This document shows, in pieces, positions 15,678 through 27,645 of a stretch of DNA of 38,866 nucleotides. The stretch is taken from positions 1-38,866 of the IMG/VR virus record IMGVR_UViG_3300021957_000110. One strand, given 5' to 3'. The notes under the pieces are model-generated. The model did no database searches and was not told the DNA's origin. It worked only from the letters and a program-made list of their open reading frames with translations. Origin of the DNA: a virus. The first letter of the stretch is position 1. Each line of letters opens with the position of its first letter. The translations under genes were made by a program, and so were the position numbers.

Positions 15678-16406
15678 TTACCTATCAACTCCGTCTATGA
15701 TAATCAAATCAAAGATTGCGCCAATCTCTGATGTAGCTCCAGCTTTAGCACGAACTTCAATGTCTGTTTTCTCTGTAAACTTTATTGGAACAGGATAATC
15801 ATAATTAACTGATGCAGCAAATGTTCCCCATAAACCTTTTGTATTCCAAGCACTTTCTTCACTTTTTCTTGTTCTAATTTGAAACTGGGCTTCTTGATTT
15901 TTAGATAAGGAACCCTGAAACTTGATAAGATATGCTGTCTTATTTGCAGGAACGGTATAGACAGCCATAAGAGTTTGACCTTCATTTGCAGCAATACGAG
16001 CAACATCTGAGGAAGAAATAGATGCAGTAATATTACCTGCATTGATTTCACCTGTGCCAGCACTTGCTACTCTCATTCTAAATACACGAATGAATGTTGC
16101 AGTAGTTGTTACTGCTGACTGCCCATTCATAGTTACAGTTTCTGTTTTTTCTATATAATTTGCATCCAGACCTTGAATTTCTACAGTACGAGCACCAGTT
16201 CCTGCAGAAGTATCTGCTGTAGATGCAGAAACTATAGAAACAACTGCAGCCGATGATGGCAAGTTATTTGTTCCAAGGTCTGTAACAGTTTCATATGAAG
16301 TACCAACTGCGGAGTTGTAACCAAATTTATTAACATGACTAGTGTCTTTTACACGTCCAGCCGAAATTTGAATAAAGTGTTCTGGGGAAAGATACATTGA
16401 AGCCAT
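15678..16406 (-). CDS. Ser/Thr/Ala-rich virion structural protein
   Basis: 242 aa, beta-rich by pattern, with low charge, many Ser, Thr and Ala, and repeated NG/TAxT turns (VEIQGLDANYIEKTETVTMNG, TFIRVFRMRVASAGTGEI). The C-terminal half (AVYTVPANKTAYLIKFQGSL, IEVRAKAGATSEIGAIFDLI) resembles beta-sandwich head-decoration or fibre-type proteins of marine phages. No signal peptide is present. AAGGAGAATTACA precedes the ATG at 16406. Composition differs sharply from the Lys-rich neighbours, which supports a surface structural rather than internal role. Confidence 0.6.
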   Translation of the reverse strand: MASMYLSPEHFIQISAGRVKDTSHVNKFGYNSAVGTSYETVTDLGTNNLPSSAAVVSIVSASTADTSAGTGARTVEIQGLDANYIEKTETVTMNGQSAVTTTATFIRVFRMRVASAGTGEINAGNITASISSSDVARIAANEGQTLMAVYTVPANKTAYLIKFQGSLSKNQEAQFQIRTRKSEESAWNTKGLWGTFAASVNYDYPVPIKFTEKTDIEVRAKAGATSEIGAIFDLIIIDGVDR

Positions 16407-16417
16407 TGTAATTCTCC

Positions 16418-17164
16418 TTAAAAAGTGATCTGTGATCTTGATTTAGATGGTTTATCTGTCACAACAATTCTACCTTTACTATCACCACGTGAAGGAGATT
16501 TACCATATACAGTTGGAATGCCTGCTCTATCTTTTTTAGTGGGATCAAATGTCTGATCTTCTCTACGTGCTCTTAGTCTAAAGAACAAGTCTTTTGAGTT
16601 TGCATATTTCTTAGCATCAGAAATTTTACCATTCAGTGTTAGAATATTTTTCTTCTTGTCAAAACTAGATACAACATCCATAGGGCCGATATACATGTAA
16701 TGAATTGGTCCTCCCATGGAAGTATTACCGATTACAAGTAGGTTCTTATCTTTGTCATTGAGTTTTGCAAATAGGTCTGGTACCTTATCACCAGGTTTTA
16801 AACTCTTTTTATGATGAGCCAAAGCTGCTTTCATAAAATTCATACCAATACCTGGTATCACAAGCTCCATGCCTGCAAGTCCGCCACCAGCAAGAGATGG
16901 TGCAGAATTACCTTTCATTGAAAGATTATATTTTTTATTCTTAGCTGTTGTAATAATAACATCTGTATATGGTTCGGTATTTGCTTTACTTCTTCCAGTA
17001 AATTTTTCTGCCTTTACGATATCACGCACAGTCATATCTTTTGTTTTAACAGTAATACCTTTTTTAGCAAGTTTAAAAGCATCATTGATAGCTTTTACAA
17101 ATCCATTTTCTTGGCGTTCGGCTCCTGCTCCAGCCTCACGTAAATATGTGGTAAACTTAATCAT
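16418..17164 (-). CDS. Late protein with CTS-like N-terminus, possibly nuclease-like
   Basis: 248 aa and first gene of the late operon, 30 bases after a TATAAATA promoter. MIKFTTYLREAGAG matches the CTS pattern (LRE followed by Ala). A segment TEPYTDVIITTAKNKKYNLS followed by MKGNSAPSLAGGGLAGM has a D...(S)xK arrangement that recalls restriction-endonuclease-like folds, but the usual Glu is Ser, so this is weak. The C-terminus is basic with KGRIVVTDKPSKSRSQITF. Function is unknown. Packaging in the head is inferred from the start sequence and operon. Confidence 0.62.
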   Translation of the reverse strand: MIKFTTYLREAGAGAERQENGFVKAINDAFKLAKKGITVKTKDMTVRDIVKAEKFTGRSKANTEPYTDVIITTAKNKKYNLSMKGNSAPSLAGGGLAGMELVIPGIGMNFMKAALAHHKKSLKPGDKVPDLFAKLNDKDKNLLVIGNTSMGGPIHYMYIGPMDVVSSFDKKKNILTLNGKISDAKKYANSKDLFFRLRARREDQTFDPTKKDRAGIPTVYGKSPSRGDSKGRIVVTDKPSKSRSQITF

Positions 17165-19067: not shown

Positions 19068-19087
19068 GTGTAACATTTATGTAACAG
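19068..19087. repeat. Palindromic repeat, copy 2 (putative operator)
   Basis: GTGTAACATTTATGTAACAG, the most divergent copy. It lies between divergent promoters, abutting the -35 of the plus-strand promoter. Immediately to its left is a separate inverted repeat (AAACACCTTTT ... AAAAAAGGTGTTT, 19031-19067). Confidence 0.6.
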
Positions 19088-25466: not shown

Positions 25467-25474
25467 TATTTATA
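25467..25474 (-). promoter_or_regulatory. T4-type late promoter (TATAAATA)
   Basis: Exact TATAAATA on the minus strand, overlapping the end of the terminator T-tract and 25 bases before the exported 197-aa protein. Confidence 0.72.
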
Positions 25475-25503
25475 AAAAAAGGAACCGCTAGGGTTCCTTT
25501 TTC
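25473..25503. terminator. Bidirectional rho-independent terminator
   Basis: GGAACC-GCTAG-GGTTCC hairpin (25481-25497) with an A-tract on the left and a T-tract on the right, so it can act on both strands. It ends the transcript of the small outer-membrane-like gene and tmRNA. Confidence 0.85.
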
Positions 25504-25526: not shown

Positions 25527-25871
25527 TCAGAACTGAAATCTTACACCCATTTTAAGGTCTTGGTAGTCAAGGTCTTTGTCAGCGGATACTTCGCCAAACA
25601 ATTCTAGGTTATCAGACAAGCCGTATGTGGCTTCTACTTCAACACCGACCATATCAAAGTCCATGTCACCGTCTACGGTAGTCAAGAGTTTCGGGGCAAC
25701 ACCAATGTTTCCCATATCGATTGTGGGACCAACTTCCATAGCGAGGCTTTCGTTTTCAACGCTGTATTCCACTTCACCAGCAGCGCCGATGTGGAACATA
25801 GAAGTTTTTTCTTCTGCGAGTGCGCCAGTGGCAGCAAGAGCAAAAGCAGTTGCGAGAATAGTAGTTTTCAT
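25527..25871 (-). CDS. Small outer-membrane beta-barrel-like protein
   Basis: 114 aa. The signal peptide (MKTTILATAFALAATGALA, cut before EEK) is followed by alternating beta strands (VEVEATYGLSDNLELFGEVS, KMGVRFQF). It ends in Phe, the usual C-terminal signal for BAM-mediated insertion. At about 95 mature residues it is smaller than known barrels (8 strands need about 140), so oligomerisation or a periplasmic role is possible. It follows the tmRNA by a few dozen bases with no terminator seen between, so it may be co-transcribed with it. Confidence 0.66.
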   Translation of the reverse strand: MKTTILATAFALAATGALAEEKTSMFHIGAAGEVEYSVENESLAMEVGPTIDMGNIGVAPKLLTTVDGDMDFDMVGVEVEATYGLSDNLELFGEVSADKDLDYQDLKMGVRFQF

Positions 25872-25894
25872 TGTAGTTTGTTTCCTATTTTTAA

Positions 25895-26222
25895 GATTTT
25901 CATGATAAAGAGGCCCGTTCTGTTGCTAGGTGGAACCCATACCCCCTGTGGTTATGCTGCTAGAGCAAACTCAGATGGTGCAAAGTTATCGTTTGCATTT
26001 AGTAGTTTTGGCTGAATAACGTAGGCCAACACGGTAAACTCCACTTCATTTTCACACCTGTCGATCCTATTTCGACCCCATCAAAGATACACTAGCGAGA
26101 ACAAAGGGAGGATCCTAAGACTGTCCCAGAGACTTATTACTCTCAAAAGACGCTAATGTAGCTATGGTGGAGTCGCTGGGTACCGCCCCCAGGTCCAGAA
26201 TGTGTCCACGTTGCTTCAACGC
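25895..26222 (-). ncRNA. ssrA: tmRNA, circularly permuted two-piece (alphaproteobacterial type)
   Basis: On the minus strand the acceptor piece comes first. It ends CTGGG-GGCGGTA-CCCAG (T-arm-like hairpin) and CGACTCCACCA, with the CCA at 26165-26167. A spacer of 85 bases (26080-26164) follows, then the coding piece beginning GGGGTCG (26073-26079), which pairs with CGACTCC to rebuild the 7-bp acceptor stem. The tag frame GCA...TAA (25996-25952) encodes ANDNFAPSEFALAA, and a TTGGC/GCCAA stem precedes it. This acceptor-spacer-coding order is the known permuted design of alphaproteobacterial tmRNA, which rescues stalled ribosomes with SmpB. The ends are approximate. Confidence 0.95.
25952..25996 (-). 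other. tmRNA proteolysis-tag reading frame
   Basis: Fourteen sense codons plus TAA: ANDNFAPSEFALAA. The ANDN start and ALAA end agree with alphaproteobacterial tags recognised by ClpXP/SspB-type systems. Resume codon GCA. Confidence 0.93.
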
Positions 26223-26234
26223 TTACAAGAGTAT

Positions 26235-26263
26235 ATATTAACATACTCTACTGATAATGTAAA
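26235..26263 (-). promoter_or_regulatory. Sigma70-type promoter for tmRNA
   Basis: TTTACA (26258-26263), 17-base spacer, TAATAT (26235-26240). It predicts a start near 26228, just ahead of the acceptor piece. Confidence 0.8.
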
Positions 26264-26286
26264 CACCCTTACAGTTTATATTTTAG

Positions 26287-26306
26287 GTGTTACATTTATG
26301 ATACAC
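26287..26306. repeat. Palindromic repeat, copy 3 (putative operator)
   Basis: GTGTTACATTTATGATACAC, 24 bases upstream of the tmRNA promoter -35 and after the end of the DUF3310-like gene. Confidence 0.6.
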
Positions 26307-27625: not shown

Positions 27626-27645
27626 GTGTAACATTTATGATACAC
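27626..27645. repeat. Palindromic repeat, copy 4 (putative operator)
   Basis: GTGTAACATTTATGATACAC, the most symmetrical copy (16 of 20 positions). It starts 35 bases above the -35 of the 27563 promoter and touches the stop codon of the 2OG oxygenase gene. It could also form a short hairpin in that transcript, but without a T-run. Confidence 0.65.

Follow-up and report, generated by a model that had tools for sequence, protein, structure and literature searches.

A complete circularly permuted tmRNA gene in a marine T4-like phage, and the promoters and intervening segments of its viral relatives

The minus strand of a marine T4-like phage, between positions 26266 and 25909 of the 38,866-nucleotide stretch analysed here (the window), carries a complete circularly permuted, two-piece tmRNA gene. 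The alpha_tmRNA model of Rfam (RF01849, cmscan) matched 25909-26266(-) over its full length (model positions 1-355), with 129.9 bits and an E value of 2.2e-35, and the tmRNA_permuted model (RF04321) scored 118.2 bits (E 1.2e-22); the Rfam cut-offs are 50 and 47 bits, respectively. The only gene that ARAGORN called in the window was a permuted tmRNA (25861-26259, minus strand) with the tag ANDNFAPSEFALAA, and the pieces can be read from the sequence. A first-pass annotation had proposed such a gene in this T4-like genome, at 25895-26263. The gene itself was confirmed, and these coordinates proved close to the modelled ends, 26266 and 25909.

The acceptor piece precedes the coding piece. Located by ARAGORN, Rfam and inspection at 26165..26228 (minus strand, as are all features below), with a 5' end predicted from the promoter, it comprises the T-arm, with its T-stem CTGGG/CCCAG (26192-26188 with 26180-26176), the acceptor strand CGACTCC (26175-26169), the discriminator A (26168) and an encoded CCA (26167-26165). 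An intervening segment of 85 nt (26080..26164), predicted to be removed on maturation, separates it from the coding piece (25909..26079, from ARAGORN and Rfam, the 3' end being that of the Rfam match), which starts with GGGGTCG (26079-26073). The two 7-base ends pair as first proposed: all seven acceptor-stem pairs are formed, with a G-U at pair 3. The tag frame called by ARAGORN (25952..25996; codons 25996-25955, stop TAA 25954-25952) retains the protease-signal end -LAA.

A G-U at the third acceptor pair is an alanine identity element, and the window tmRNA reads as having the features for alanylation, namely G3-U70, the discriminator A and CCA. In all of the 124 viral permuted tmRNAs compared, pair 3 was G-U and the discriminator A, and pairs 4-6 varied with compensating changes. 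The acceptor stem and intervening segment together fold at -38.8 kcal/mol (z -4.4), a value that none of 200 shuffles reached; folding of the whole molecule was no better than shuffles (z -1.0). For the first pseudoknot, ahead of the tag frame, a TTGGC/GCCAA pairing is possible in the window, and G-C to A-T changes were seen by eye in the closest relatives; counts pooled over the relatives failed on differing loop lengths.

This stretch is phage DNA; a join of host sequence to a phage contig is rejected, because a second assembly carries the gene unchanged and the order of the neighbouring genes is kept in related contigs. The second assembly (L346), which comes from the same phage population and is 99.92% identical over 13,972 bp, contains the 421-bp tmRNA stretch without change. 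The order cell-wall hydrolase, tmRNA, w25527, w24849 is common to the window and to contigs L127, L141 and L150. The tmRNA has a DUF3310 protein and the cell-wall hydrolase as neighbours, and UvsX, a DnaB-like helicase and ribonucleotide reductase are encoded elsewhere in the window, together with six TATAAATA late boxes, all on the gene strand. Directly downstream of the tmRNA lies w25527 (25527..25871, minus strand), a small protein with a signal-peptide-like start, MKTTILATAFALAATGALA, found also in L127, L141, L150 and L023, for which Pfam and PHROG gave no family match. With ARAGORN, many related contigs had no tmRNA at this place, partly since the contigs are short fragments; the gene is thus recurrent in the group, neither universal nor essential. 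In L127, UvsX is 95% identical to that of the window, yet the tmRNA has another stem (GGGCCTG) and another tag, ANDNRAPEMAMAA. There, a decayed tmRNA copy (16130-16380) whose acceptor part is that of the window stands directly before the intact gene (16434-16835), as if one allele had been replaced by another.

The comparison set comprised about 200 relatives, with ARAGORN finding permuted tmRNAs in at least 194 viral loci. A tree of 162 mature tmRNAs placed that of the window within an all-viral group of 59 (98/86), with 83% to L149 as its highest identity; an earlier, smaller tree agreed. The sampled alphaproteobacterial genes fell outside this group, and so did the tmRNAs of phages MD18, RcXuper, RcRudolph and Cp1R7A-A1. 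Viral tmRNAs overall are not one clade, since some fall on the host side of the tree, those of MD18, RcXuper and RcRudolph among them. As the first-pass annotation had suggested, the tag was compared with those of possible hosts: no exact match to the tag pattern was obtained in a scan of 85,462 species genomes (GTDB), and no tag was common to 67 distinct viral tags and 68 tags of sampled Alphaproteobacteria. Viral tags often end in [FY]ALAA, and 65 of the 67 end in -AA, which counts for the tag being used, since an unused tag would lose this end.

The same annotation had read the host class from the RNA type. This did not hold, because the window tmRNA groups with viral genes only, and because phage Melnitz, which infects OM43, carries an alpha-type tmRNA. 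The tag gave no host assignment either, as the genome scan had no match. For the acceptor stem, the nearest matches were Caulobacterales genomes and a few contigs of metagenome-assembled genomes (L210, L211, L214) whose tmRNAs group with phages, and no assignment was made. Phage-type tmRNAs were thus seen in bacterial bins (these three, and G018, a Rhodobacteraceae bin), one bin having eight alpha_tmRNA matches above or near the cut-off, a pattern that suggests misbinned phage contigs.

A sigma-70-type promoter, TTTACA-N17-TAATAT with TG before the -10 (26235..26263, minus strand; TTTACA 26263-26258, TAATAT 26240-26235), stands in front of the gene. The first-pass annotation had called it a consensus promoter. 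The hexamers alone are at chance level, with 9 of 12 consensus bases and 4 such sites in the region against 3.6 expected from shuffles. What makes the promoter convincing is only its membership of a set of four in the window that share an upstream palindrome, TGTATCATAAATGTAACA, placed here at 26288..26305 on the minus strand. The exact copies of TGTWWCATWWATGWWACA lie at 1003-1020, 19069-19086, 26288-26305 and 27627-27644, and stand 42, 53, 53 or 64 bp upstream of a TTTACA -35, the tmRNA having the 42-bp version. L127 also has four copies, and all eight precede TTTACA by 42-43, 53 or 64 bp, in steps of about one helical turn. The dispersed repeats of the window proved to be promoter modules. 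The palindrome is probably the binding site of a regulator, and its spacing suggests that a small set of promoters is controlled by a regulator of the phage. Downstream, the transcription unit, which probably includes w25527, seems to end after that gene at a terminator-like hairpin, AAAGGAACC/GGTTCCTTT followed by a T run (25467..25500, minus strand), which overlaps a late box TATAAATA at 25474-25467.

SmpB (PF01668) was searched for in phage records, as had been proposed at first pass, and was found in none of 19 and none of 8 (0/27), while the controls gave matches. Records titled complete genome were included (Melnitz, MD18, RcXuper, Phosso, Cp1R7A-A1, RcRudolph); the window itself is a genome fragment. 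With no SmpB found in these records, this is probably not a self-sufficient rescue system, and we infer that host SmpB is used. We consider it likely that the gene makes a working two-piece tmRNA that performs standard trans-translation with host SmpB in the infected cell. The host-type sigma-70 promoter, with its palindromic upstream site, would drive a transcript of the tmRNA and w25527 ending at the hairpin adjoining the late promoter. In the precursor, the two 7-base ends would pair to form an acceptor stem with the intervening hairpin as its cap, and host RNase P and tRNA 3' processing would free the two pieces, which would remain paired. Host alanyl-tRNA synthetase would then charge the molecule via G3-U70, and host SmpB would bring it to stalled ribosomes, where ANDNFAPSEFALAA would be added and its -LAA end should direct the products to host proteases. 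The benefit would probably be that ribosomes are kept free while the infection breaks down host messages. A phage with its own rescue RNA, apparently without SmpB, lets one ask what tmRNA does during infection.

Other uses of the gene can be imagined. It could mainly change the fate of tagged proteins, a different tag being handled differently by host adaptors and proteases, so that degradation is steered to host proteins or phage proteins are spared. Buchholz et al. (PMC9004378) propose selective degradation, and the absence of the window tag from all scanned genomes, like the disjoint viral and sampled host tag sets with their frequent viral [FY]ALAA ends, is in keeping with it. However, the window tag retains -LAA, and close relatives have unrelated tags, as L127 does, which points to drift or to an exchange of alleles more than to a new signal that has become fixed; the window tag may be a case of simple drift. 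We regard this explanation as rather improbable. Less credible still, and in our view very unlikely, is a decoy role, in which the RNA would sequester host SmpB or compete with the host's tmRNA in the manner of the tag-less DS6A RNA. An RNA of this type is known to inhibit tmRNA (PMC4131195), and the tested records have no phage SmpB, but a decoy needs no tag, and the tag frame is intact in the window and the -AA end nearly constant among the viral tags.

That the gene is passive host DNA, left behind by imprecise excision or joined on during assembly, is the least probable explanation of all and hardly to be entertained. tmRNA genes are common integration sites (PMC9004378), and L127 demonstrates that tmRNA copies can decay. 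Against this stand the intact stem, tag and promoter of the window and the viral-only tree group, as well as the second assembly and the kept gene order, which also answer the concern about a host join raised at first pass. Standard trans-translation with host SmpB is thus the reading we retain.

Phage permuted tmRNA is a known but little-studied trait. Published cases in marine myophages are methylophage Melnitz and pelagimyophage Mosig (Buchholz et al. 2022, PMC9004378), both T4-like with an alpha-type permuted tmRNA, as in the window. Melnitz infects a gammaproteobacterial OM43 strain and yet carries the alpha-type two-piece form (PMC9004378). Its tmRNA also lies near a cell-wall hydrolase gene, and SmpB was not found. 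It differs in its tag (ANDNYVPVDYALAA versus ANDNFAPSEFALAA), and has a predicted glutamine riboswitch (PMC9004378), a TATAAATA promoter and an ORF in the intervening segment, whereas the window has the palindrome-linked promoter and a hairpin segment, and no riboswitch at Rfam's threshold (cmscan). The Caulobacter-type tmRNA of Alphaproteobacteria (RF01849) shares with the window the gene order, acceptor stem, T-arm, tag type and a full-length model match; unlike that of the window, sampled alphaproteobacterial tmRNAs fall outside the viral group and have shorter segments and other tags. The alphaproteobacterial phages DSS3_MAL1, MD18 and RcXuper likewise bear an alpha-type tmRNA. Mycobacteriophage DS6A also carries the tRNA-like domain of tmRNA, but without a tag frame; with its tag frame intact, the window RNA is not of the DS6A type. 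The window tmRNA matched 8 phage records, and in 6 of them nothing is annotated under the match.

The surprising parts are the regulation and the intervening segments of the relatives. The window's own tmRNA promoter has no T4-late box. At the same promoter position, many viral tmRNA genes have TTGACA-N17-TATAAATA, a sigma-70 -35 joined to a T4-type late box, which lies upstream of the acceptor piece at a nearly constant distance (for example L007, L009 and L208). TATAAAT occupied this position in 129 of 218 viral tmRNA genes but in only 1 of the 58 bacterial genes sampled. Of 106 viral genes in a first set, 65 had it, compared with 0.58 in random places; 51 of these 65 had at least 5 of the 6 TTGACA bases, at exactly 17 nt in 47 of the 51. 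Away from tmRNA genes, such a -35 accompanied only 4 of 132 TATAAATA boxes. Tandem forms were observed in L114, L119 and L071. From its two elements, such a promoter would be usable both by host sigma-70 and by the phage late factor, and dual use, if true, would give a more precise account of what the Melnitz paper (PMC9004378) calls an "early promoter". The design is apparently undescribed, as we found no mention of it at viral tmRNA genes in the literature consulted.

Intervening segments are longer in viral than in sampled bacterial genes (median 86 versus 39 nt). Among viral segments 40 nt or longer, 97% have an outer helix of at least 7 bp, compared with 36% for re-paired controls. The window segment forms a hairpin (outer helix 26160-26151 with 26097-26088) and has no ATG ORF with a Shine-Dalgarno sequence. 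Of 110 viral segments with a length of 90 nt or more, 45 carried an ORF of at least 25 codons with ATG and Shine-Dalgarno sequence; dinucleotide shuffles of the same segments gave 4.4 on average and 9 at most. Such ORFs occur in L057, L072, L083, L455 and L486; in L018, L036, L109, L398, L005 and L500; in L027 and L081; L035 and L110; L473 and L428; L382 and L396; in L023, where 27 codons lie in the segment of a contig with at least 7 neighbouring genes common with the window; and, unannotated, in Melnitz (L208). The stop codon of the ORF often overlaps the start of the coding piece. In 12 homologous ORF pairs, synonymous exceeded nonsynonymous change, mostly by far (e.g. 0.76 versus 0.06), the weakest pair having 0.14 versus 0.07; these small ORFs of the excised segment are under purifying selection. 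None of ten peptides matched PHROGs, and two of the ten, searched in a phage collection, were not found there. ORFs in this position are apparently undescribed: we found no mention of them in the literature consulted, including passages of the 2025 tmRNA database paper, which reports a tRNA gene and a repeat within segments of this kind.

On balance, we favour a view of phage permuted tmRNA genes as compound loci shaped by phage evolution, with a lineage apart from the sampled host genes, a promoter that would be readable by host sigma-70 and phage late factor (or operator-linked in the window's clade), and an intervening segment that provides room for small protein genes, nested within it and read from the precursor. 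Both the segment ORFs and the common promoter design are testable. A separate observation concerns L127 and L210, whose intervening segments are nearly identical in tmRNA genes with different acceptor stems and tags, as if the segment could move between genes.
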